Below are positions 18,176 to 32,253 of a stretch of 64,000 bases of DNA, in pieces; the first letter of the stretch is position 1, and each line of letters starts with the position of its first letter. The notes under the pieces are model-generated. The model was not told the DNA's origin. It did not search any database and saw only the letters and a program-made list of their open reading frames with translations. Where the stretch lies: assembly GCF_000499205.1 (NCBI RefSeq), contig NZ_AWUK01000006.1:124001-188000 (forward strand), read 5' to 3'. The position numbers and the translations under genes are program-made. Source of the DNA: Paenibacillus sp. MAEPY2 (GTDB lineage Bacteria > Bacillota > Bacilli > Paenibacillales > Paenibacillaceae).

Positions 18176-18240
18176 TATAATCAAAAGGCTATGCTGCCGA
18201 AAGGTACAACCTCGTAAACATTGGGGTTGTGCCTTTTTTG
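18176..18240 (+). ncRNA. Candidate leader RNA with terminator, cyclomaltodextrinase
   Basis: The leader has TATAATCAAAAGGCTATGCT (18176-18195), then the hairpin ACAACCTC/GGGGTTGT (18206-18230) extended by AAGG/CCTT and a run of six T. This is a full intrinsic terminator ahead of the start codon, suggesting attenuation. A related element (15 of 20 bases in the first block, same ACAACC stem) precedes the CGTase gene. I match it to no known riboswitch. Confidence 0.45.
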
Positions 18241-18283
18241 CGTTTATAGCCGTATGATCCATCCCAACCAAGGAGTGAATGTC

Positions 18284-20053
18284 ATGTTACTTGAAGCTAT
18301 TTATCATCGTCCCAAAATGAATTGGTCCTACGTATACGACCGTTCGACCATGCACCTGAGACTCCGTTCCAAACGGGGCGATCTGGATGCCGTTATCGCT
18401 ATTGTCGGGGATAAATATGCCTGGGATCGTACGATCCTCCACCTTCCTATGCGGATCTTTGCCCGTGATGCCCTGTTCGATTATTGGGAAGTGGAAGCGC
18501 AACCACCCTACCGCAGATTGCGCTACGGCTTCCAGCTGATTGAGGGCGAGGAATCCGTCTGGATGACGGAACGCGGATTTGAGCAGGCCCTGCCCGATCA
18601 TCCGCTGGAATTTTTCGATTTTCCATTTATGAACCCGGTAGATATCTTTGAACCGCCAGCTTGGGTTAAGGATGCTGTGTTCTATCAGATCTTCCCTGAA
18701 CGTTTTGCCAACGGTGATCCTTCGATTAGTCCGAAGAACGCAGAGCCCTGGGGCGGTGAACCGACGCCTTTCAATTTTTTCGGGGGTGACCTGCAAGGCG
18801 TTCTGGACCATCTCGACCATCTGAGTGCGCTTGGCATTAACGCCATTTATTTCTGCCCGGTGTTCCAGGCTACAACCAACCATAAGTACAATACCGCAGA
18901 CTATTTGAGGGTCGATCCCCACTTTGGCACCAACGAGAAATTGAAGGAACTGGTGGATGCGTGCCATGAACGTGGCATACGGGTTGTTCTGGATGCGGTG
19001 TTTAACCACTCCGGGAGAGAGTTTCTTCCATTCGTGGATGTGCTTGAGAAAGGGGCCGCTTCCCGTTATGCGGACTGGTTCCATGTCAGAGAGTGGCCGG
19101 CGCGTATTGAGGATGGCATTCCCACTTACGAAACCTTTGCCTTCGAACCCCTTATGCCCAAACTGAACACGGAGCATCCCGAGGTCAAAGAATATTTGCT
19201 GGAGGTGGCCCGCTACTGGATTCAGGATATGGGTATCGACGGTTGGAGGCTGGATGTTGCCAATGAGGTAGACCATCAATTCTGGCGCGAATTCCGGCAA
19301 ACGGTCAAAACCCTTAATCCGGATGCCTATCTGCTCGGTGAAATCTGGCATGATTCCATCATGTGGTTGCAGGGAGACCAGTTCGATGCGGTTATGAACT
19401 ACCCGTTCACCAATTCCGTCATGGACTATGCCGTGCTCGGCAAGCTCGACGGTCTCGGGTTCGCCAATGAGATTGGTAAACTGCTTGCTGCTTATTCACA
19501 GCCTATAACCGAGGCAGCTTTCAACCTACTTGGCAGTCATGACACGCCGCGACTCCTCACCCTATGTGAAGGGGATGTTCGCAAAATGAAGCTGGCTGTC
19601 ATGCTGCTGCTTACGTACCCAGGTGCTCCATGTATTTACTATGGTGATGAAGTAGGGCTTGATGGAGGTTATGATCCAGGTTGCCGCAAATGTATGGAGT
19701 GGGACGAACAGAAGCAGAACAAGGATCTGCTCGACTTCTTCACCCAAGCCATTGCCCTGCGTAAACAACACGCTGCATTGCGCGGTGCGGACATCACGAT
19801 GATTTACGCTGAAGCTGGAGATCCCTGCATTGCCATTGGACGCAAGGATCAGGAGAGCGGGGAACAATTCGTGCTCGTCCTGAATGCAAGCGAAGAACCC
19901 CGCAGTATGGAGTTGCCACTACACCAGGGGACTTGGCGTAATGTATTCTCAGCCACAGCCCGGGAAACTCAGCAGAACAAGCTGAAGCTGGACTTGGAAG
20001 CGTACGGTTTCTCCCTGCTGCAGCTGGATGTGAAATCACACGTGAAAGCATAA
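18284..20053 (+). CDS. Cyclomaltodextrinase / neopullulanase (GH13)
   Basis: 589 residues from ATG 18284 (AAGGAGTG upstream); no signal peptide, so intracellular. Length and layout fit the GH13_20 cyclomaltodextrinase/maltogenic amylase/neopullulanase group. There is an N-terminal starch-binding-like domain (to ~120), the VFYQIFPERFANGDP entry, and the catalytic barrel with nucleophile D324 (DGWRLD), acid/base E353 (LLGEIW) and D420 (LLGSHD), then a C-terminal beta domain. It opens imported cyclodextrins and cleaves maltodextrins or pullulan to maltose and panose. With CGTase at 24962 and the MalEFG importer it completes a cyclodextrin pathway. The three enzyme names of this group cannot be separated by sequence alone. 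Confidence 0.88.
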   Translation: MLLEAIYHRPKMNWSYVYDRSTMHLRLRSKRGDLDAVIAIVGDKYAWDRTILHLPMRIFARDALFDYWEVEAQPPYRRLRYGFQLIEGEESVWMTERGFEQALPDHPLEFFDFPFMNPVDIFEPPAWVKDAVFYQIFPERFANGDPSISPKNAEPWGGEPTPFNFFGGDLQGVLDHLDHLSALGINAIYFCPVFQATTNHKYNTADYLRVDPHFGTNEKLKELVDACHERGIRVVLDAVFNHSGREFLPFVDVLEKGAASRYADWFHVREWPARIEDGIPTYETFAFEPLMPKLNTEHPEVKEYLLEVARYWIQDMGIDGWRLDVANEVDHQFWREFRQTVKTLNPDAYLLGEIWHDSIMWLQGDQFDAVMNYPFTNSVMDYAVLGKLDGLGFANEIGKLLAAYSQPITEAAFNLLGSHDTPRLLTLCEGDVRKMKLAVMLLLTYPGAPCIYYGDEVGLDGGYDPGCRKCMEWDEQKQNKDLLDFFTQAIALRKQHAALRGADITMIYAEAGDPCIAIGRKDQESGEQFVLVLNASEEPRSMELPLHQGTWRNVFSATARETQQNKLKLDLEAYGFSLLQLDVKSHVKA

Positions 20054-20289: not shown

Positions 20290-21696
20290 TTACATCCCTT
20301 CCGAATCGTCCTCCATGCTTGCCGCAACCTCATCAAGAACGGAGAAGCTTGGACCGGGATTTCTTATTTTCTTCATTCTTGGGCTTGTTAAGGTTTCATG
20401 AGTAACGACGATCTTTTGCGGGATTTTGTATGGTGGCAGCTTGTCTTGGCAAAAGTCCCAGATTTGTCTGCGCAGTTCAGTAAGAGACTGTTCACCTGTA
20501 AGTCTGACCGTGGCCTTAACCATCTGCCCCGTAATTCCACTCGGCTCCCCGCTGATGACAGCCGTTTCAATGGAATCCATTTTCTCCAGAACACTTTCTA
20601 CTTCCGCAGGATAAACCTTACGTCCGCCTACATTAATGATCTCCGAGCGGCGACCCAGAATGCGAATGTAACCATCCTCCATCTCCGCTTCGTCTCCGGT
20701 CTGAAGCCAACCATCTTCCGTGAAAGGAGATGGAGCGTTCAGATACCCGATCATGGCCGTTTCACTCTGAATCTCAAGCAACCCGTCTACAATCCGATAA
20801 CGGACTTCTCCATCACGAACCGTAAATAGCAAGGAACCCGAATCTTTGGAACGTGTCGGCAGAATGCCAAGCTCTGACATACCATAAGCCTGCACCGTCC
20901 GTACATGCGGGAACTGTCGATTCCATGCTGCAAGCAGCGCCTCTGGCATAACCTCTGATCCATAGGAGACCACTTCGAGACTGGATAGGTCGAACTCCCG
21001 ATAGATTTCACTAAGGAGCATTAGATTCATGAACGTTGGTGAGACCGGCAGCGCCTGAACGCGATACTTTTCAATGGTTCTGCATACTTCCAAGGGGGAG
21101 CGATCCGGTATGACACATAAACAGCCGCCGCTGGACAGAGATTGCAGCATCGTGTTTAAGCCGCCAATATGGTCAAACATCATGAAAGGAATCGTACAAA
21201 GCGGCCGAACTTGCCGCCTGAATCCGTCCAACAGACGATCCGCGCTGTGAACAGCGGCTTTGCTTCGTCCTGTCGATCCGGAGGAGAAGATCACCAGACC
21301 TGCTTTCTTTTCCTGACCCAGCCTTGCCAATATCGGAGACCGATTGCCTTGCACGGAGCAGCGTCTGGCTATAGCTTCCCCTTCTCCAACACTCATGCAC
21401 CATTCTGCCTGAGCGAGCGCTGTATATTCATTCCGTTTAGCCTTAACCAAGTGTCGATCCAGCGGAACCACAATACAATTCCGTTCCAGAAGAGCGATTA
21501 ATGTCGCTGCCGCATAAGGAGAATAATCCTCTTCAAGCACAACGATTGCCCCTTCAAACCCTTCTCTGGAAATCCACTCGCTAAGGGTCTTCACCTGCTC
21601 CAATAACCAGTTATAACTATATTGCTCGTCCTTCCATATCAACGCAGGGCGGCTGCCATACACAGCGAGCCGTTCCAGAAGAAAAGTGATATTCAT
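20290..21696 (-). CDS. AMP-dependent synthetase/ligase
   Basis: 468 residues of the ANL adenylating family. It has the P-loop-like IFSSGSTGRSKA, the A5-type YGMSELG, the TGDEAEM hinge region, and GRRSEIINVGGRKVYPAEVE near the end. It should activate a carboxylic acid as an acyl-adenylate and pass it to a phosphopantetheine thiol. The catalytic Lys expected near the C-terminus (PPYKIPQKI...SPRMKK) appears present. Its start overlaps the stop of the carrier-fusion gene (ATGA), so the two are coupled. The natural partner is therefore the carrier domain of that protein. Substrate not predictable. Confidence 0.82.
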   Translation of the reverse strand: MNITFLLERLAVYGSRPALIWKDEQYSYNWLLEQVKTLSEWISREGFEGAIVVLEEDYSPYAAATLIALLERNCIVVPLDRHLVKAKRNEYTALAQAEWCMSVGEGEAIARRCSVQGNRSPILARLGQEKKAGLVIFSSGSTGRSKAAVHSADRLLDGFRRQVRPLCTIPFMMFDHIGGLNTMLQSLSSGGCLCVIPDRSPLEVCRTIEKYRVQALPVSPTFMNLMLLSEIYREFDLSSLEVVSYGSEVMPEALLAAWNRQFPHVRTVQAYGMSELGILPTRSKDSGSLLFTVRDGEVRYRIVDGLLEIQSETAMIGYLNAPSPFTEDGWLQTGDEAEMEDGYIRILGRRSEIINVGGRKVYPAEVESVLEKMDSIETAVISGEPSGITGQMVKATVRLTGEQSLTELRRQIWDFCQDKLPPYKIPQKIVVTHETLTSPRMKKIRNPGPSFSVLDEVAASMEDDSEGM

Positions 21697-23108
21697 CCCT
21701 CATCATCCTTCGGGCCATGTTTCAATTGCGCCTCCAAATATTCAACCAGCGATTCCACCGTTCGGTAAGGACTTTCGGGCATGGAAGCAGCGGCTATTTC
21801 CGCGAGAGTTATCCCTACACCAAACGTATCTTCAACCCCTTGCTCTACAACCGCAAGTAAAGTGACAAGTTCAAGGGAGTCCAGTCTCCCCCGCCTTCCA
21901 TATAAGGGCGCTTGCAAACCATGCTCCATAGGAATGGGCGCGTTATGGTACCGATTAATCTCATCGCAGCTATCCAACACAATCCGCTCAATAACTTCCC
22001 GTTGTGAAGGCGCGGGGTTCTCTGCAGTCGATGAGGTCTGTCTGAATCGGTCAGCATGCTGATGTGTCGTCATCAGCGCTTCGTACCAGCGCAATTCATC
22101 CGCCGCCAATTGTTTGATAATATCCGTTAGCTGCTCCCGCCATTCAGGGCTTCGTTTCATTCTGGCGATCTGCAGCAGCTTGTGAGCATGTTCCCAGCGA
22201 GCTATCAATACACCGAATTCCGCAACATATTGATCATGGGGAGAATCAAGCCATTTGGCGGCCTCTTCCAGCAAATCGCGGAAAAAGTAGCGGCTCCAGC
22301 GCATGTCAAACAGGAACGCGGAGATGGCTTTCTCTTTTTCACGATCCACCTCGGCATCCGGTTGCAGTCTTTGTAACAATTGTGAAGATACAGCCTTTCC
22401 AAAATAATAGCTACGATTGCCCTGCCAGACGGTTCTACCCGAAATGAATTCATGGGCCTGCGTCGCCAGCGCAGAGCGCAGCATGTTCCGGTAGCCTGCA
22501 GAGTCGAGTGTTTCCACCGCACGAATCTCCATCGTGCCATAGGTCCGTAATGTTTCTTTTCGCCGGGCTATTTCAAGCTCAGAGATATTTTTGTTTCCTT
22601 TCCAGAACTCCTGGAAATCAGCGGCCGATACAGCTCCCATATATTTGGAGGGAACGGGATCATAGACATAGAACTGATCCTCATCCATCCCGTACACACC
22701 CAGCCAATGATCGACCAGATGCAGGCGCGAGCCTTGTTTAACGAGTTTGTGAATATATTCCGGATTTCGATAATCCTCCCCGTAAGGCAAGCAATAACTT
22801 GTGCCTGTGACGATCAAAAGGTCCTCATTTCCAAGACGTTCCTGAATATAGGCCTTTCCTTGTTCGAAGCTGTCAAATTCCCGTTCTCCAACCACTTCCC
22901 ACATCGGCTCCCCATAATCCAGCTTATGAAAATAAGGCTTGATCAGGCCACGATCTGAACAGGAAGGCAGGCTATATAAGCGGCTGGAAGCCAGCAGGCC
23001 CAGACTGCTTATGGAGCCCTGACGCTGAAGAATTTCGTGAATCAAAGGAAAATTGCAGGGATAATAATACGGAATATCCATCGTGGGTTGAAATGGTTGA
23101 CTAATCAT
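21693..23108 (-). CDS. BtrH-like N-domain fused to an acyl carrier domain
   Basis: 471 residues from ATG 23108; the AGGAGGTAG site overlaps the esterase stop. The N-terminal ~180 residues resemble the BtrH_N fold (butirosin BtrH acyltransferase). They show YYYPCNFPLIHEI, TGTSYCLPYG and then VDHWLGVYGMDEDQFYVYDP, giving possible Cys-His-Asp residues. A helical middle follows. The last ~65 residues are carrier-like with LDSLELV, the Ser being the expected phosphopantetheine site. By family analogy it could hold an acyl group on its own carrier and transfer it to an amine or hydroxyl. The partner ligase is translationally coupled. Domain assignments moderately secure; the reaction is inference. 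Confidence 0.7.
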   Translation of the reverse strand: MISQPFQPTMDIPYYYPCNFPLIHEILQRQGSISSLGLLASSRLYSLPSCSDRGLIKPYFHKLDYGEPMWEVVGEREFDSFEQGKAYIQERLGNEDLLIVTGTSYCLPYGEDYRNPEYIHKLVKQGSRLHLVDHWLGVYGMDEDQFYVYDPVPSKYMGAVSAADFQEFWKGNKNISELEIARRKETLRTYGTMEIRAVETLDSAGYRNMLRSALATQAHEFISGRTVWQGNRSYYFGKAVSSQLLQRLQPDAEVDREKEKAISAFLFDMRWSRYFFRDLLEEAAKWLDSPHDQYVAEFGVLIARWEHAHKLLQIARMKRSPEWREQLTDIIKQLAADELRWYEALMTTHQHADRFRQTSSTAENPAPSQREVIERIVLDSCDEINRYHNAPIPMEHGLQAPLYGRRGRLDSLELVTLLAVVEQGVEDTFGVGITLAEIAAASMPESPYRTVESLVEYLEAQLKHGPKDDEG

Positions 23109-23110
23109 GG

Positions 23111-24484
23111 CTACCTCCTGTTCCCGGCCTTGGCAGCTGTGCTGCCCCAAGACTGGATTTTGTAATGAAGAGACAGGTTATCATGGGCACGAAACACCCG
23201 ATTGGGCAGTGCCTTGCCATCTGCATCGGTCTCAAACTGCCGGAAGCCTCGCGTGAATCTGAACCGAAATCCGCTGTCACGCGGAACCTCGAAGCAGCCC
23301 TCATAACGGCCGCCGCCTGCGTGCAGAAGCTTCATGCCCATGCCTCCGTAGATCGAGTCATCATACATGTCCTGATACGGTACCTCCGCACTCATGCAGA
23401 CTGTCACGTGACCCGATAATTCCTCCACAACCGTATACATGCGTGATGCCGACAACGCTCCCACCGTCAGGGTAACGACTGCATTACCCGTCTTGACAGG
23501 AACCAGTTCCCCATTGGGTCGTACCTCAAGAACATCGGGTTGATCGGACCTATATTCCCCTTCAAGCACACTCATGGTAAACCCACTATCATGATGAAGC
23601 AGCGCATTGACGTGACCGCTCATGCCGCCCTTCAATCCGATCACGTCCCTCCCCGTTAATTCCAGAGAGACCGGTTTGCCGATTCGGCCAAACATGTACA
23701 TCAGCGGAAGGTGAACCCGCTCTCCCCAATCCGCTTCCTGATGACCTGCATCCGGCTGTTCCAGAAATGCGATGTCCTTGCCAGATTTATACCCCAGTTC
23801 AAGCATCTGATGGGCTATTTTCCTTACCTGGGAAGGCAGAAACAATCCTTCGGCATCCCCAATATCCATCCACATTTGAATCGGCGCACTGCTCTCAGGC
23901 ATGAGGTACATGTTCTCTTCCTGAAGCCTGCTCTCCGACGTTTCGTCCAGCTGCACGTCCACGAAGAAGGGAGAGAGCATGATTAATTTGCCAAAAATTT
24001 CGGGATGACGTGTTCCCATATGAAAGGTGCTGAGTGCCGCTGCGGAAGAACCAAGCAGTCCCGTATTGTCCTTGTCCGGAAGTGTGCGGTAATGCTCGTC
24101 AATGAACGGTTTCAGTTCATGAATGATAAAGTGTTCATAATCCAGGCCGGAGCAGCCCACACTCACCGCTTCTCTTGCAGGCGCAATGAAATGATAGAAT
24201 TCATTGTGTGTAACTGGACGAACATGGGCAATTCCGACAATGATCAGCCCATCCATCAAGCCTTGAGCGATCAGTTGGTCTGCTGCCTGATCTACGTGCC
24301 ACGTTTCATTTCCCGCAGTCGAAGAGCCGAAGGCTCTCTGACCCGCATGCATGTATAACACCGGATAACGATGATCCACATGCTCCTTATAGCCTGGTGG
24401 CAAATAGACAAAAATCTTTCTCGTGTTGTCCAGCCTGGATGCCTTGAAACCTTCCACACATTCGATGACAGAAGGAGTGTTCAC
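23111..24484 (-). CDS. Fes/IroE-like esterase with C-terminal Ig-like domains
   Basis: 457 residues with no signal peptide. The first ~270 residues are an alpha/beta hydrolase of the putative-esterase type: IFVYLPPGYKEH, nucleophile motif GLLGSSAAAL, an acid in WMDIGDAEG and the His in DAGHQEADW. The rest has a bacterial Ig-like segment (DQPDVLEVRPNGELVPVKTG) and a beta-rich end. Enterochelin esterase and related enzymes share this hydrolase fold. The start is GTG 24484; its ribosome site is weak (AGGAGAGG is 14-20 bases away). First gene of a tight three-gene operon, so its likely substrate is the ester or thioester made by the other two proteins. Confidence 0.75.
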   Translation of the reverse strand: MNTPSVIECVEGFKASRLDNTRKIFVYLPPGYKEHVDHRYPVLYMHAGQRAFGSSTAGNETWHVDQAADQLIAQGLMDGLIIVGIAHVRPVTHNEFYHFIAPAREAVSVGCSGLDYEHFIIHELKPFIDEHYRTLPDKDNTGLLGSSAAALSTFHMGTRHPEIFGKLIMLSPFFVDVQLDETSESRLQEENMYLMPESSAPIQMWMDIGDAEGLFLPSQVRKIAHQMLELGYKSGKDIAFLEQPDAGHQEADWGERVHLPLMYMFGRIGKPVSLELTGRDVIGLKGGMSGHVNALLHHDSGFTMSVLEGEYRSDQPDVLEVRPNGELVPVKTGNAVVTLTVGALSASRMYTVVEELSGHVTVCMSAEVPYQDMYDDSIYGGMGMKLLHAGGGRYEGCFEVPRDSGFRFRFTRGFRQFETDADGKALPNRVFRAHDNLSLHYKIQSWGSTAAKAGNRR

Positions 24485-24575
24485 TGAGCCATCAACCGCC
24501 TCTCCTATAGATTCCCCTTGTACACACTGGTTTTTTTCGTTATGCCTGCTTTGTTCTTCCTTCGGCTACATCGAC

Positions 24576-24611
24576 AAACAACCCCGTCTCTGAAGAGACG
24601 GGGTTGTTTTA
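24576..24611. terminator. Strong hairpin between divergent operons
   Basis: AACAACCCCGTCTC pairs perfectly with GAGACGGGGTTGTT around TGAA, with TTTT on both strands. It lies ~90 bases upstream of the esterase start and ~120 bases before the CGTase promoter. It could insulate the two or act as a leader terminator for the esterase operon. Confidence 0.7.
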
Positions 24612-24729
24612 AAACACCGAAATGTTCTAAAATGCATAGCCCTTATATTGGTGGGTCTGCGAATAGTTTAAATCTGTTAAGCCTGATTGTAAATATAGAA
24701 ATAGAAAAAAAATGCTCAGGAAAAAGTTA

Positions 24730-24759
24730 TTGACAACCAAACCATTATTTAATTATCAT
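24730..24759 (+). promoter_or_regulatory. Sigma-A promoter of the CGTase gene
   Basis: A perfect TTGACA -35 (24730-24735) is followed after 17 bases by TTATCA, or after 18 by TATCAT. Confidence 0.6.
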
Positions 24760-24761
24760 AA

Positions 24762-24850
24762 CGTTGTGATTATAACTAGAGGGCCATGCTTTTAAACCCA
24801 ATCGGTTTAGGACAACCCCGGTAACTCCAGCAGGAGGTGCCGGGGTTGTT
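24762..24850 (+). ncRNA. Candidate leader RNA, CGTase
   Basis: TATAACTAGAGGGCCATGCT matches the block ahead of the cyclomaltodextrinase at 15 of 20 positions. A small hairpin AAACC/GGTTT follows, then a strong one from ACAACCCCGG to CCGGGGTTGT (24812-24849). There is no U run after it, so this copy may be a stem-loop rather than a terminator. Confidence 0.4.
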
Positions 24851-24901
24851 CGCATTCATAAGGAGGGGATATCGTTAAGAATAACCTGCCAATGGCTAAA
24901 T

Positions 24902-24961: not shown

Positions 24962-27118
24962 ATGTTCAAATGGACCAAGCGAATCATCCTCAGTGCCACG
25001 CTGAGCTTCAGCTTGCTGGCTGGAAGTGCACTGCCAATATTCCCGGCTGCCTCCGTATTCGCAGATGCGGATACGGCTGTAACCAACAAGCAGAACTTCA
25101 GCACCGATGTTATTTATCAAGTATTTACCGACCGCTTTCTGGACGGCAATCCCTCCAATAACCCTACCGGGGCAGCCTATGACGCCTCCTGTTCCAACCT
25201 GAAGCTCTATTGCGGGGGCGACTGGCAAGGACTGATTAACAAGATCAACGACAATTATTTTACCGATCTTGGCATTACGGCACTCTGGATTTCTCAGCCT
25301 GTGGAGAACATTTACTCGCTGATTAATTATTCCGGTGTCAACAATACGGCTTATCACGGCTATTGGGCACGTGACTTCAAGAAGACCAATCCTGCTTTCG
25401 GTACGATGACCGATTTCCAGAACCTGATCAATACGGCACATGCCAAGGGCATTAAAGTGATCATTGATTTTGCTCCCAATCATACCTCTCCTGCCATGGA
25501 AACCGATACCTCATTCGCAGAGAATGGAAAGTTGTACAATAACGGAACACTGCTTGGTGGCTACACCAATGATACGAACAAATACTTCCACCACAATGGC
25601 GGCTCTGACTTCTCCACACTGGAGAACGGTATCTACAAAAACCTCTATGATCTCGCTGACCTGAATCACAACAACAGCACGATTGACACCTATTTCAAGG
25701 ATGCGATCAAGCTCTGGCTGGATATGGGCATTGACGGAATCCGGGTGGATGCGGTCAAGCATATGCCGATGGGATGGCAAAAGAACTGGATGTCCTCCAT
25801 CTACGGCTACAAACCGGTATTCACGTTTGGTGAATGGTTCCTGGGTTCATCCGCATCAGATGCGGACAACACCAACTTTGCCAACCAATCCGGCATGAGT
25901 CTGCTCGACTTCCGTTTCAACAATGAAGTACGTAACGTGTTCCGGGATAACACGTCCTCGATGGTTGCCCTGGATGCCATGATCACCAGCACTGCGGCTG
26001 ATTATGCCCAGGTGAATGATCAGGTTACCTTCATTGATAACCACGACATGGACAGATTCAAAACAAGTGCCGTTAACAACCGTCGCCTGGAACAAGCTCT
26101 TGCATTTACACTTACCTCACGGGGCGTGCCAGCTATCTATTACGGTACGGAACAATATTTGACGGGTAACGGAGACCCTAACAACCGGGCAAAAATGCCT
26201 TCATTCTCCAAAACTACAACCGCTTTTAACGTCATCAGCAAACTGGCACCATTACGCAAAACCAATCCAGCTATCGCTTACGGAACTACCCAGCAGCGCT
26301 GGATTAACAATGATGTGTATGTGTATGAACGTAAATTCGGCAACAACGTGGCTGTCGTAGCGGTTAACCGCAATCTCTCGAATTCCACTTCCATCAGCGG
26401 GCTTACTACATCGCTCCCTTCTGGAACATACAACGATGTACTTGCAGGTGCGCTAAACGGTAATAATATTACCTCTACAGGAGGAAATGTCTCTACCTTC
26501 ACTTTGGCCGCAGGAGCCACAGCAGTTTGGCAGTATACAGCCAATACCACAACGCCAACCATCGGACATGTAGGCCCAACCATGGGCAAAGCGGGCAACA
26601 CCGTTACTATTGATGGTCGCGGATTCGGTACTACCAAAGGCACGGTCTATTTCGGTACAACAGCTGTGACCGGTTCAGCCATTACTTCCTGGGAAGATAC
26701 TCAGATCAAAGTGACCATCCCTGCTGTTGCCGCCGGCAACTATGCAGTTAAAGTCCTAGCCAGCGGAGTCAACAGTAACACCTATAACAATTTCACGATT
26801 CTTAGTGGCAATCAGGTTTCCGTTCGGTTTGTCATCAACAATGCATCCACGACGCTTGGTCAGAATCTCTATCTGTCAGGTAGTGTCGCGGAGCTGGGCA
26901 ACTGGTCCACAGGTCCTCTCGCCATTGGTCCAGCGTTCAATCAGGTGATCTACTCCTATCCAACCTGGTACTATGACGTCAGCGTACCTGCCGGAACGAA
27001 ACTGGAATTCAAGTTTTTCAAAAAGAACGGCTCTACCATCACGTGGGAAAATGGCAATAACCATACCTTCACCACACCAACCAGCGGAACGGCAACTGTT
27101 ACAGTGGACTGGCAATAG
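24962..27118 (+). CDS. cgt: Cyclomaltodextrin glucanotransferase (CGTase)
   Basis: 718 residues, secreted (signal peptide to about SVFA-DAD). It has the full A-E layout of CGTases: the A/B barrel with nucleophile D263 (GIRVD), acid/base E291 (FTFGEW) and D362 (IDNHD), domain C, the IPT/Ig domain D ([22 protein letters not shown]) and a CBM20 starch-binding domain E ([10 protein letters not shown]...LGNW). The central aromatic that favours ring closure is Tyr229 in NLYDLAD, at the position of Tyr195 of the Bacillus circulans enzyme. It converts starch to cyclodextrins outside the cell. Ring size cannot be stated from this alone. Control is suggested by the promoter, leader hairpin and cre-like site upstream. 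Confidence 0.95.
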
Positions 27119-27234: not shown

Positions 27235-28521
27235 CTATCGATAGGTCCGAATGGATTTTAATCCTGCTGCTGCGACCACCCCTACCACCAAAAGCATCGC
27301 CCCAAGGCTTTCCAACACGGTTTGGGCACCCCATTGATCAGCCAGAACCGAGACCACCGTTAATCCCAGGATCGGGGCTGTACTTGTTATGGTACCGAGC
27401 ACGCCGTAGATCCTTCCCTGCAGCTCATCAGGAACCTCGGCACGCATCATGATCTGGGTTAACATCGTACAGCACGCAAACATGGCTCCCCCGGCAATAA
27501 TCAGTGGCAAGGCCAGCAATGGAGAGGATACATTGGATAACAGCATATACAGTGGACCAAGGACCAGTAAACCGATAAACACCCATCGTCCTCTTCGTTT
27601 CAAGCGATTACCGGAAGCAATCAGAATCCCGGAACCCAGCATATACCCCAGAGGAATACACGTCTCGATCAGTCCGAACTGGACAGGATTCGCCTGCCAT
27701 ACGTTGACGGCCATGACCTGAACAAGCATGATGGCTGACATGAAGAAGAGAATCAGCAGCGGATTAAGAATGACGATGGAGCGAATCAGGGGATGTGCAA
27801 AGATGTAGGAGAACGAGCCACCCCACTCCTTGACGAACGATCCTCTATGCATGGAAGAACGTTGTACATCCGGGAAACGTCCGGCCAACATCACACATAT
27901 CGCAGACAATAAAAAGGTCACACCCGTAATCATGATCGCCGTAAACCCTCCAAATGCAGAAACTGCAATCCCCGCTGCGGCCAGTCCGCTGATACGGGCA
28001 ATATTATCGACCAGATGAATGGTTCCTGTAGCTTGCTGCAGATGCTCCCTCCCCACCAGACTGGTTACCGAAGCATGAAATGCAGGCGCCTGAAACAGGC
28101 TGGAGAACATGGAAAGGGAAAGCATGAGCAGCACGAGTGGAAAAGGAGCGTGCAGCACAAACAGACTCACTGCGATGATAAACGCCATGGCTCCACGAAA
28201 CAAATCCGACGACAGCATCAGTTTTCTGCGATCTAGCCTGTCGGCAAACGTACCTGCGAATGATCCGAACAGAAAACTGACGACCATATTACATACCTGC
28301 ACAGCTGCCATGCTCTTGGCACTTCCCGTGGTCTGCAACACCCACAGACTGATGGCAATGCCGTTGAAGCAATCACCGAATACGGAGATGCCGTAGCCGC
28401 ATAAAATTCTGCGATAAGCAACATTACGCAAAAGCGCCCTATTGGCCATTTTCTGACTCTCCGCTGCAGTGCGAGTCCCGTTTGGCCCCAATTCGGGTTC
28501 TGGGGACTGTAGCGTTCCCAT
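27235..28521 (-). CDS. MFS exporter
   Basis: 428 residues from ATG 28521, which has AAAGGAGG nine bases upstream; an earlier ATG at 28554 lies before that site. Twelve hydrophobic segments are evident, with the FADRLDRRKLML loop-2-3 motif of major facilitator drug or siderophore exporters (MFS_3/EntS-like). It is likely a proton-driven exporter of a small molecule. It follows the MalEFG operon on the same strand but is separated from it by a large hairpin, so it may be separately expressed. Its proximity to the esterase/carrier/ligase operon makes a product exporter conceivable, but this is a guess. Confidence 0.75.
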   Translation of the reverse strand: MGTLQSPEPELGPNGTRTAAESQKMANRALLRNVAYRRILCGYGISVFGDCFNGIAISLWVLQTTGSAKSMAAVQVCNMVVSFLFGSFAGTFADRLDRRKLMLSSDLFRGAMAFIIAVSLFVLHAPFPLVLLMLSLSMFSSLFQAPAFHASVTSLVGREHLQQATGTIHLVDNIARISGLAAAGIAVSAFGGFTAIMITGVTFLLSAICVMLAGRFPDVQRSSMHRGSFVKEWGGSFSYIFAHPLIRSIVILNPLLILFFMSAIMLVQVMAVNVWQANPVQFGLIETCIPLGYMLGSGILIASGNRLKRRGRWVFIGLLVLGPLYMLLSNVSSPLLALPLIIAGGAMFACCTMLTQIMMRAEVPDELQGRIYGVLGTITSTAPILGLTVVSVLADQWGAQTVLESLGAMLLVVGVVAAAGLKSIRTYR

Positions 28522-28562
28522 CGATCTTTTCCTCCTTTTATCATTCGGTCTCAAACAGCAGA

Positions 28563-28682: not shown

Positions 28683-29519
28683 TTATCCTTTGGAGGCGCC
28701 AGAGGTCAGCCCCTGCACAAGGAAACGCTGCAGGAATACAAACAACAACGTAATCGGAATGGCGATCAGTACGGCCCCGGCAGCAAACATCGTAAAGTTA
28801 CTGTCCTGATAGCGGCTAACTAGATCCCACATGCCTACTGCAAGGGTCCAGTTCTCTTTCGTCCGGAGTACCAGCCGGGCAAAGATAAAGTCCATCCACG
28901 CACCCGTAAAGCTGGTTAAAGCTACATAGGTCAGCATCGGCCGGGACAACGGCAAAATGATACTGGTGAACACGCGCAGATGACTGGCGCCGTCAATTCG
29001 TGCGGCTTCATCCAGACTGCGCGGGATGGTATCAAAGAACCCTTTGACAATAAATCCACCCAGTACAGCCCCGGACGAATAGACCAGAATTAATGCGGCA
29101 TGGGTGTCCAGCAATTTGATCTGAAGCAAAATAATATAAATGGCGATCATGCTCATGAAGCTGGGGAACATCCCCAGGATCAGCATGGTGGATAGAATGG
29201 TCTTCCGACCGCGGAACCGGAAACGGGATAAGGCATACATGCCCAACGTAACCATGAGCGTTGAGAAAATCATGGTGAAAAAGGCGATCTTCAACGTGTT
29301 CAGATACCACGTTCCATACATGAACGACGGGTTGTTAAACAGCTCCCCATAATGTGCCAGCGTGAACGCTTCAGGCCACAGACGTTCACTGAACAGGGCC
29401 GCCCCTGGACGCAGTGACGAGAGAAATATCCACAAGACGGGGTATACCGATACGATGGCAATGATGACCAGCAGCACATAACTGATCGTCAGACGCATGG
29501 GATTGTTGCGCTTTTTCAT
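28683..29519 (-). CDS. malG: MalG-type sugar ABC permease
   Basis: 278 residues, six membrane segments, with the EAA loop for ATPase contact at DEAARIDGASHLRVFTSIILPLSRP. Ends with the typical RFLVQGLTSGASKG. Forms the inner-membrane pore with the MalF-type partner, whose stop it overlaps by four bases. Probably imports maltodextrins or cyclodextrins, given the adjacent CGTase and cyclomaltodextrinase. No ATPase gene is in the window, so a shared MsmX-type ATPase elsewhere is expected. Confidence 0.9.
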   Translation of the reverse strand: MKKRNNPMRLTISYVLLVIIAIVSVYPVLWIFLSSLRPGAALFSERLWPEAFTLAHYGELFNNPSFMYGTWYLNTLKIAFFTMIFSTLMVTLGMYALSRFRFRGRKTILSTMLILGMFPSFMSMIAIYIILLQIKLLDTHAALILVYSSGAVLGGFIVKGFFDTIPRSLDEAARIDGASHLRVFTSIILPLSRPMLTYVALTSFTGAWMDFIFARLVLRTKENWTLAVGMWDLVSRYQDSNFTMFAAGAVLIAIPITLLFVFLQRFLVQGLTSGASKG

Positions 29520-30871
29520 TGAATCATGTCCTCCTCCTTGAACGATTTGGAACGACGGAAATTCCAGATGGAGAACGACGCAATAATCAGGAAGATAATA
29601 ATGCCGACCGCCGAAGCCATATTGAACTTGTTGTTATCCAACGTCAGTTTGTACAACCAGGTCACGAGAAGGTCAGTTGATCCCGCATATTGATAATCGC
29701 CACGCAGCGGATTACCATTCGTCAGCAGGAAGATGACATTGAAGTTGTTGAAATTCCCGGCAAACTGCATAATGAGCACCGGTGTTGTGGCGAACATGAT
29801 AAAAGGAAGCGTAATGATGCGGAACTTCTGAAAACCGGACGCACCGTCCACCTCAGCCGCTTCATACAGATCCCGAGGAATCGCAGTCAAGACGCCCAAT
29901 ATGAGCACCATGCTGACCGGGATTCCGATCCACATGTTGACAATGACGACTGTAACTTTTGCCCAGAACGGATCGGTTAACCAAGGCAGCCCCTCAAGAC
30001 CAAAAGCCTTCATATACGTATTAATGGGACCGAACTGTCCGTTGAACAAGTTACGCATCAAAAGCAGGGAGATAATCTGCGGAATGGCATAAGGAAGAAT
30101 GAATATCGTCCGCCACAGCTTTTTGAAACGAATGCCCTTCTGTTCGATGAGAAGCGCAACCAACACGCCCCCAAAATAGGTAGTGACTGTTGCCAGAATG
30201 GCCCAAATGACCGTCCACGTTAATACCCCAAAGAAGGTATGGCTCCACGATTTAAGCTGAACCAGGTCCGTAAACGTCTTAAAACCCACCCAGTCCACCA
30301 GCTTGGCGGGTGGAATATGATCCGGTGCCGAGTAGTTGGTGAAGGCCAGCGTAATCGTAAACAAAATCGGCATAATCGTGAAGAACAGGATACCGAGGGC
30401 TGGAATCGACAAGAAAAGATACGGGAATTGTTTATCGAGCAGATATCTCAGGGAAGCAGAAGCTCTGGTAGCCTGCTTTCCTTCCTCTCTTAATTTTCCC
30501 GTGAGGTACGCGTCCCGGATATTGAAGATATACAGCAGAAGAAAAACGAAAAACACCAAAAGTACAATAATTCCATTGAGCAGCAAGAAGATGGAGTGGT
30601 CGCCCTGCTGCAGCACCGTTGATCCATTCACTTTGACAAAACGCTGCGTCTGCTCGCCCAGCGTCCATACTCCCCATACGGCTTGATTCAAACGAGGAAT
30701 CAGATATGCGAGTCCAATTACCTCCAGGATCAGAAAACAGATTCCCTTGATCCATTGACGGTTATACAACTGTCCAAGTCCTTGCAGGACCACGGACAAC
30801 ACAGCCGCTGTCATGCGATGCTGTCTTTCTCTATTCGGCTTAACAGTGACTGGAACATGCTGCTGTTTCAT
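29516..30871 (-). CDS. malF: MalF-type sugar ABC permease
   Basis: 451 residues, longer than minimal permeases because of extra N-terminal helices before the SIPALGILFFTIMPI transport core, like MdxF of Bacillus. The EAA loop is YEAAEVDGASGFQKFRIITLPF. The stretch NNFNVIFLLTNGNP...TDLLVTWLYKLT is typical of maltodextrin permeases. It is translated before MalG and after the binding protein, 95 bases downstream. Substrate assignment rests on neighbours and family resemblance. Confidence 0.9.
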   Translation of the reverse strand: MKQQHVPVTVKPNRERQHRMTAAVLSVVLQGLGQLYNRQWIKGICFLILEVIGLAYLIPRLNQAVWGVWTLGEQTQRFVKVNGSTVLQQGDHSIFLLLNGIIVLLVFFVFLLLYIFNIRDAYLTGKLREEGKQATRASASLRYLLDKQFPYLFLSIPALGILFFTIMPILFTITLAFTNYSAPDHIPPAKLVDWVGFKTFTDLVQLKSWSHTFFGVLTWTVIWAILATVTTYFGGVLVALLIEQKGIRFKKLWRTIFILPYAIPQIISLLLMRNLFNGQFGPINTYMKAFGLEGLPWLTDPFWAKVTVVIVNMWIGIPVSMVLILGVLTAIPRDLYEAAEVDGASGFQKFRIITLPFIMFATTPVLIMQFAGNFNNFNVIFLLTNGNPLRGDYQYAGSTDLLVTWLYKLTLDNNKFNMASAVGIIIFLIIASFSIWNFRRSKSFKEEDMIQ

Positions 30872-30966
30872 TCATTCCTACTCCTTCCCGGCAAGCGAAG
30901 TTACCGATCAGTTATAGCAGAGTGCAGAGGAAATGTTGGCTTCCTCTGCACCTGCTCTTTTTTTAT

Positions 30967-32253
30967 TTATTGGACAGTTGCAAGGCTCTCCTTAACTTGG
31001 TTGACTGCGTTATCCAGAGAGGTTTTTACATCCTTGCCTCCATCCCATATGTCGGTAATTGCCGCGCTGATGGGACCCCAAACGCTGTCCATGGCAGGAA
31101 GCGAAGGCATTGGAGTGGAGTTGTTGAATTGCTCAAGGAATGCCTTTGTAATCTCATCTCCCTGAATCTTCGGATCTGCCGCAACGTCTTTATTGGCCGG
31201 GAGAGTTCCGTTCATCTCAAAGTTGACCATCTGAGATTCGGCACTGGAGAGATATGCCGCAAACAACTTGGCAGCATTCGGATAGTTTGTGAATGCATTG
31301 ACGTAATATGCCTTGACTCCAGAGAAGGAAGTCATCGGTTTGCCTTCAATCGCCGGGAGTGGAGCAACACCGAAGTCAATGCCGGCATTTCGATAATCGG
31401 CGATGGACCAAGGTCCGTTAATATCCATGGCCAGTTTTCCGCTTGAAAAGAGGCCTTTCTTGATGTCATAGTTCACATCGCCCATTTTTACAGGCAGTAC
31501 TTCCGATTTCAGCGTTTGCAAGAATTGGCCGCCCTTGATGGCTCCTTCATTGTTGAGGCCAATATCCTCGCTGTTCATGCCTTCATCGCCAAAGATATAT
31601 CCACCTTGGGAAGCCAGGTAAGCAAAGTTGTAATAGAACTGCTGGAGCTCCCACATCAGGGTGTACTTGTTGTTTTTGGTGTCATTAAAAGTTTTGGCAA
31701 AGCTGATAATGTCATCAAATGATTTCGGTGCTTCGGGATAAAGCTTTTTGTTATAGAACAACGCATAGGTTTCTACGCTGTAGGGATAGCCGTATAAGAT
31801 GTCTTTGAAGGTTACGGCTTTAACCGCATTGTCACTGGATGATTGTGTGGTCTGTTGCTCAAAAATATCATTCGGCAAGATCAGTCCGGCTTCTGAAGCG
31901 CTGCCAATCTTGTCATGCGGGAAAACGACTACATCCGCAGCCAATCCCGCGGGTCCGTCCGTTGTCAGCTTGGTCACCTGATCGGTCGGCGGCAATTCCT
32001 CGATCTTTACAGAGACGCCGTACTCCTCTTCAAATTTCTTCGCTCGCTCCTCTATAAAGCTCCGCTGATTTTTATCCTCCCATATGACAAGGCTTGCGCC
32101 CTCTTCTGGCTGAATATTTTCCGCGGTCACTGTTGTTTCACCAGTCTCACCGCTGTCTGTTGTGGTTGGCGCAGCGCCTCCACCTCCGCTTGAACATGCA
32201 GTAAGTGTGAGTGCCATGAATCCTGCAAGTGCTGCTTGCTGCCATCTTTTCAT
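30967..32253 (-). CDS. malE: MalE-type maltodextrin/cyclodextrin-binding lipoprotein
   Basis: 428 residues with lipobox LTAC and a Gly/Thr-rich tether, so anchored outside the membrane. The mature protein has the class I sugar-binding signature (LVIWEDKNQRSFIEERAKKFEEEYGVSVK, DGPAGLAADVVVFPHDKIG) and resembles MdxE and CycB. It captures linear or cyclic maltodextrins for MalFG. First gene of the operon; AAAGGGGG precedes the ATG. Two MalR-like operators and a cre-like site lie in the divergent intergenic region upstream. Confidence 0.9.
   Translation of the reverse strand: MKRWQQAALAGFMALTLTACSSGGGGAAPTTTDSGETGETTVTAENIQPEEGASLVIWEDKNQRSFIEERAKKFEEEYGVSVKIEELPPTDQVTKLTTDGPAGLAADVVVFPHDKIGSASEAGLILPNDIFEQQTTQSSSDNAVKAVTFKDILYGYPYSVETYALFYNKKLYPEAPKSFDDIISFAKTFNDTKNNKYTLMWELQQFYYNFAYLASQGGYIFGDEGMNSEDIGLNNEGAIKGGQFLQTLKSEVLPVKMGDVNYDIKKGLFSSGKLAMDINGPWSIADYRNAGIDFGVAPLPAIEGKPMTSFSGVKAYYVNAFTNYPNAAKLFAAYLSSAESQMVNFEMNGTLPANKDVAADPKIQGDEITKAFLEQFNNSTPMPSLPAMDSVWGPISAAITDIWDGGKDVKTSLDNAVNQVKESLATVQ

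Follow-up and report, generated by a model that had tools for sequence, protein, structure and literature searches.

BtrH of the butirosin pathway is an acyl carrier protein (ACP):aminoglycoside acyltransferase (PMC10318531), and sets consisting of a ligase, a carrier and a papain-fold transferase are known or proposed, with CtaI/CtaH/CtaG of closthioamide (PMC6772006) as one case and the papain-fold transferase CcbD of the lincosamides (PMC12945683) as a further precedent. This study describes a related three-gene locus in Paenibacillus sp. MAEPY2 (genome size 7.47 Mb), located within a window of 64,000 nucleotides (contig NZ_AWUK01000006.1, positions 124,001 to 188,000), which is the whole stretch of DNA that was analysed. 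The genes encode a Fes/feruloyl-type hydrolase (EST), an acyltransferase domain of the BtrH/CtaG/CcbD fold fused to a carrier domain (BtrH-carrier) and an AMP-forming acid ligase (LIG). With a probability of roughly 0.6, the trio is predicted to form an amide between a carboxylic acid, perhaps an aromatic one, and an amine, behind a leader RNA shared with the adjoining cyclodextrin glucanotransferase (CGTase) gene.

Chemically, the module belongs to a type already represented by CtaG, CcbD and BtrH; the carrier fusion and the partner genes set it apart. The initial annotation had gone further in describing the pathway as unlike standard modules, which was overstated, since the comparable sets cited above are known or proposed. 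Relative to butirosin BtrH and DarH, the fold class is the same by name, whereas the protein here scores under both the BtrH_N and the DarH cut-offs. In contrast to CtaI/CtaH/CtaG, the carrier is fused to the transferase, identity is 14-15%, and the partners differ, being an esterase, a major facilitator superfamily (MFS) protein and starch enzymes; thioamide or beta-alanine genes were not recognised here. The protein differs from the lincosamide synthetases CcbD/LmbD by an Asp in place of Glu, at 10-12% identity, and no thiooctose or alkylproline genes were recognised in the trio. EST is distinguished from the Fes, BES and feruloyl esterases of PF00756 by an extra beta-rich C-terminal part and, in three of the aligned EST rows, by a Cys nucleophile. 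Among titles and abstract openings in a body of literature with few subscription journals, no report of this cassette or its RNA was found.

All three genes were confirmed at the place given by the initial annotation, lying consecutively on the minus strand from 24484 to 20290 in the order EST (23111..24484), BtrH-carrier (21693..23108, including a separately listed stretch at 21717..22004) and LIG (20290..21696). The translational overlap proposed for the trio holds for the BtrH/LIG junction, where the two genes have the four bases ATGA in common (21696-21693), and does not hold for EST/BtrH, where the EST stop at 23111 and the likeliest BtrH start, the ATG at 23108, most likely leave a gap of 2 bases; the AGGAGG ribosome-binding sequence for BtrH sits inside the 3' end of EST. 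A TTG at 23150 was also considered as the BtrH start and is unsupported, as 27 homologues (alignment A1) start within 2 residues of the ATG at 23108.

The trio recurs as a unit. Loci with long flanks numbered 33, comprising 31 from a scan of genome contigs and two added from the order of Nostoc calcicola, in which 291 genomes were searched with the Nostoc protein; neighbourhoods were tabulated by tblastn at E 1e-10, and split genes were counted as present without mending (all three trio genes in locus L054, LIG also in L052 and L055, and the CGTase gene in L052). In 32 of the 33, BtrH is directly preceded by EST and directly followed by LIG, an order kept in Paenibacillus, Cohnella, Evansella, Nostoc and others, so that the genes are conserved together. 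Protein searches with BtrH-carrier returned 38 homologues, the named ones from Paenibacillus or Cohnella and the closest 92% identical (Paenibacillus marchantiae), and the Nostoc protein returned 23, of which the named ones are six cyanobacteria (with Nostoc, Calothrix, Cylindrospermopsis, Cronbergia and a Nostocaceae represented), one Chloroflexota and one Paenibacillus. Among 392 sampled genomes of the home order, 41 have a BtrH-family match at E 1e-20 or better; in 39 this match spans nearly the full length of BtrH-carrier, and the other two (G415 and G430) have only a distant BtrH without a carrier. The window protein is a fusion, since a stand-alone gene encodes the carrier in 5 of the 32 loci (L058 from Evansella, L059, L060, L070 and L071), where by eye every carrier shows a DSL/DSF motif that includes the Ser. 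In L054 (Paenibacillus sp. OVF10), EST, BtrH and LIG each occur as two overlapping pieces, through sequencing errors or decay.

Starch enzymes accompany the trio across these loci. A GH13 starch-type enzyme is found near 28 of the 32, and a CGTase, whose presence the initial annotation had suggested checking, near 24; four of the remaining eight have another GH13 enzyme (L059 from Nostoc calcicola, L070, L071 and the metagenome-assembled genome L060). The position between two amylases, which had been called odd, is therefore conserved, and CGTase and EST moreover have a leader RNA in common. An MFS gene lies within the fetched flanks of 27 of the 32 loci. Additionally, a PhyH-type dioxygenase gene follows LIG in 10 of the 32 (L045-L047, L049-L053, L056 and L057), which are Cohnella and some diverged Paenibacillus, with the Pfam assignment made on the L049 copy, and a methyltransferase is present in three of the four loci L059, L060, L070 and L071, although L060 has no more than a short fragment of it.

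Catalytic residues are conserved in the BtrH domain and the carrier. The Cys-His-Asp/Glu triad of the BtrH domain, here C21, H137 and D153, is kept in 39 of 39 rows, and the domain has the papain-like fold of the carrier-dependent transferases CcbD and CtaG, which supports the acyltransferase-like domain of the initial annotation despite a Pfam score below threshold. The carrier domain has the ACP fold and a phosphopantetheine serine, S414, that is unchanged across the 26 fused rows of alignment A3, so the carrier serine is not absent in homologues. EST belongs to PF00756 (88.5 bits against a gathering score of 22), with S147 as nucleophile, H248, and a beta-rich C-terminal part at about residues 270-450; its best fold matches are hydrolases, and no signal peptide was seen by eye. 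Residue 147 is Ser in 19 of the 22 rows of alignment A2, which includes one EST-like paralogue (L050 1901-3196) that is not a trio gene. LIG matches AMP-binding PF00501 (106.7 bits, gathering 29.9) as well as PF13193, and scores 87.7 bits against a cut-off of 317.4 for TIGR01733, the amino-acid adenylation domain of nonribosomal peptide synthetases. Cohnella faecalis (L050 1901-4550) has a tandem array of two more EST-like genes and a third piece ahead of the MFS gene.

Combined, the conserved order, the invariant catalytic residues and the fold support the minimal ligase-carrier-acyltransferase pathway put forward in the initial annotation. LIG would adenylate the acid and load it onto the phosphopantetheine of S414, from which Cys21 of the BtrH domain, aided by H137 and D153, would accept the acyl group as a thioester; by analogy with CcbD and CtaG, this domain may then pass it to an amine. 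The MFS protein would export the amide product, and EST would act on an ester of the product or of its precursor, either by hydrolysis or by transfer via an acyl-enzyme. The observed basis consists of gene order, catalytic residues, model folds, recurrence and the shared leader, and we infer every chemical step, the kind of acid and the amine, which is possibly an amino sugar. For LIG, a carboxylic acid is the likely substrate and an aromatic one perhaps, the aromatic part being weakly based.

The leader RNA, here termed R1, occurs twice in the 477 bases that separate EST from CGTase, once on each strand: one copy leads the EST operon (24571..24650, minus strand) and the other leads the CGTase gene (24773..24856, plus strand). 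Each copy consists of an AGGGC-nn-UGC motif, a hairpin P1, a strong terminator-like hairpin (ACAACCCCG...CGGGGUUGU) and a T-rich tail. The hairpin pattern, which like the R1 regular expression was composed after the window had been viewed, occurs twice in the window against 0.00 expected, and the folds of the two copies are far more stable than shuffles (z of -5.7 and -5.6). In alignment A6, a MAFFT alignment not fitted to structure that contains 22 copies (21 of the 28 regular-expression matches and the CGTase leader of the window, omitting near-identical copies and a few more), 95.5% of the cells are paired, and 52 cells show double changes, as compared with 14.9 in shuffled and at most 17 in slid controls; double changes occur in 10 of the 18 base pairs. 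An alignment of 65 copies made with the model, and therefore leaning towards it, gave 93.9% paired cells and 235 double changes against 79.6. R1 is thus a conserved structured RNA that covaries strongly.

R1 looks undescribed, as far as Rfam and the literature searches reach, most subscription journals lying outside their coverage. In Rfam 15, R1 of the window has no match at the gathering score, the sole overlap being DsrA at 21.8 of 60 bits, and for eight further loci one match was listed, below gathering and not overlapping R1. By itself, R1 may be a more novel part of the locus than the trio. The simplest reading of R1 is that of a terminator-type attenuator through which the CGTase gene and the EST operon are made under the same condition. 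A leader peptide starting at the AUG or CUG of the conserved motif was considered and is unlikely, since 29 of the 65 copies have no stop within the element and the peptides vary in length and ending. The catabolite (cre) pattern occurs near chance (22 against 18.2). As the promoter scan as a whole found 11 sites against 10.4 expected, only the 11-of-12 site ahead of CGTase at 24730-24759 is notable.

The distribution of R1 extends beyond the trio. The R1 model has a match immediately ahead of EST in all 27 loci L031-L057 and ahead of CGTase in all 24 CGTase-bearing loci, both in part by construction; within the home genome, just the two sites of the window pass E 0.01. At E 0.001 or better under strict filters, R1 was found in 131 of the 392 sampled genomes, spread over 15 of 49 genera. 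It is present in 41 of 41 genomes with BtrH and in 90 of 351 others; shared descent confounds this comparison, which is not taken as a test. Forty-seven sites were picked for diversity among the matches listed, and the longest frame starting from -200 to +900 bases of the element was assigned to each. Behind these sites are 16 CGTases, three cyclomaltodextrinases, three large S-layer pullulanase-type GH13 proteins (Pfam) and one starch-binding CBM21 protein, which amounts to starch-degrading or starch-binding genes at 23 of 47 sites; four sites precede EST and 11 precede N-acetyltransferases of the AAC(3) type (three assigned by Pfam; the L153 enzyme shares 67-86% identity with the other ten). 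The remaining nine comprise two MATE, one ABC, one HAD, one MFS and one SDR-like gene, one secreted-looking protein without a Pfam match and two sites without a clear gene. Two loci in this tally are also counted elsewhere (L131 = L047, L139 = L046). Among 13 further places, L112-L116 are in the 47-site tally and L107 and L109-L111, which precede CGTase, were kept apart; L108, L117, L118 and L119 have no AGGGC motif, resemble plain terminators and were dropped. R1 also precedes CGTase in four genomes (G012, G013, G037 and G056) in which the BtrH search found none. Therefore, in this order R1 reaches beyond the trio and marks mostly starch genes that the trio joined, and the trio, sharing R1 with them, seems to be part of a starch regulon.

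The AAC(3)/Antibiotic_NAT loci (L112, L116, L144, L153, L158, L159 and L161-L165) have a version of R1 with a short P1, which in 6 of the 11 lies 9-22 bases ahead of the predicted start, the longest frame otherwise entering the element; no starch genes were recognised near these AAC(3) genes.

Several observations weigh against an amide-forming set tied to starch use. The BtrH domain scores 19.2 bits for Pfam BtrH_N (PF14399; gathering 29.7) and 16.7 bits for DarH (NF053550; NCBIfam cut-off 300), and its Foldseek TM-scores are modest (0.38-0.47 by query), with AziU3 as the closest fold match. AziU3 is not known to be an amide synthase, so the fold leaves the reaction of this domain unfixed. 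For LIG, the first solved-structure match from a single sequence is the fatty-acyl ligase FadD13, and among NCBIfam models a subfamily of long-chain fatty-acid ligases scores best, though far under its cut-off (145.6 of 476); in the trio, no gene for making an amine or an aryl acid was recognised. The sole exception to the conserved order is a lone BtrH-like gene in a different cluster in Fictibacillus (L061), four more BtrH-like genes without a carrier lie among other genes (G415, G430 and G489), and a weak 26% match falls inside a 2,535-residue frame of G091. GH13 queries had no match in the flanks of 4 of the 32 loci (L045, L047, L057 and L058). Finally, R1 was found in none of the five most distant trio loci, which makes it a regional form of regulation and not a part of the machine.

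The homologues from Fictibacillus L061 (27.4 bits) and Nostoc L059 (23.2 bits) also stay below the BtrH_N gathering score, and Evansella L058 was not listed at E 0.1. The L061 cluster (Fictibacillus solisalsi) contains small carrier-like and PhyH-like proteins, a ketosynthase-like gene and genes that by eye resemble sugar-nucleotide genes. Two tandem carrier-less BtrH-like genes of G489 (L200 9213-11843) have ligase-like and ABC exporter-like neighbours by eye; the trio is present elsewhere in G489.

The alternatives differ in the product they assign to the trio or in whether they relate it to starch at all. It is unlikely, in our estimate, that EST is the final acyltransferase, working by a ping-pong mechanism via its nucleophile so that a sugar ester of maltodextrin or cyclodextrin is made and not an amide. 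Cys nucleophiles favour transfer, and S147 is replaced by Cys in 3 of the 22 A2 rows, all Nostoc-like (L059, L070 and L071); 'Protein PS1', a mycoloyltransferase, is among the profile matches of EST, and GH13 partners accompany 28 of the 32 loci. Ser is kept in the other 19 rows, with L060 and all Firmicutes rows among them, hydrolases lead the fold matches, and no evidence of sugar binding was obtained for the C-terminal part of EST. A siderophore-type pathway is a decidedly improbable reading; in it, an iron chelator would be made by an aryl ligase, an aryl carrier and an amide synthase, exported by an EntS-like protein and reopened by a Fes-like esterase. Against the enterochelin esterase model NF007758, EST scores 21.6 bits (cut-off 222), the MFS protein scores 111.7 bits against EntS (NF007792; cut-off 324), and the Fur box of iron regulation occurs at chance level.

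Chance neighbourhood, by which a secondary-metabolite operon stands beside a starch locus through shared ancestry only, is similarly improbable. Synteny alone could hold the genes together within the home clade, and the four loci where GH13 queries had no match fit this view; however, L059, L060, L070 and L071, with other flanks, all have GH13 enzymes that differ in type and stand in two different gene orders, and R1 still precedes EST in the CGTase-less loci L045, L047 and L057. Returning to the amide-forming set, its link to starch is observed in the neighbourhood and the shared leader, and may mean co-expression with starch enzymes by attenuation at R1. If this holds, starch use in Paenibacillus and relatives would be wired to the making of an exported amide, with one regulatory RNA, R1, marking the whole regulon. 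R1 would then provide a direct handle, as a ligand or binding protein can be sought, and its regulon would predict which genes belong together, including aminoglycoside-type N-acetyltransferases without an obvious starch role. A very unlikely extension takes R1 as a new attenuator class that senses a starch-derived or amino-sugar compound; in this starch-feeding regulon, an AAC(3)-type enzyme (in some genera) or the trio (in others) would N-acylate an amino-sugar, and the MFS pump would remove it; this compound could be, for instance, an inhibitor of amylase or glucosidase encountered during growth on starch, or one that the cell itself makes.

Both flanks of the trio are plus-strand GH13 genes, in agreement with its reported place between two amylases. 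The CGTase (24962..27118), divergent from EST, aligns over 684 of 684 residues with PDB 1cgt (1385 bits), a Bacillus circulans-type CGTase; such CGTase genes are long-standing industrial enzyme genes. The titles and abstract openings searched contained nothing that links CGTase to this operon or leader RNA. On the other side lies a cyclomaltodextrinase/neopullulanase-type gene (18221..20053) with an uncertain start codon. The MFS exporter gene (MFS_3; EntS-like; 27235..28554), a frequent companion of the trio, is on the minus strand, as is a sugar-type ABC transporter (28683..32253) consisting of two permeases (malG- and malF-like) and a solute-binding protein (malE-like), names that serve as labels only. 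The GH13 genes of the distant trio loci (L059 14108-16144, L060 4876-6999, L070 13447-15468 and L071 16411-18441) encode proteins with no signal peptide seen by eye and an N-terminal part of about 150 residues without assignment, the L071 copy being nearest to PDB 4e2o and Anoxybacillus alpha-amylases.
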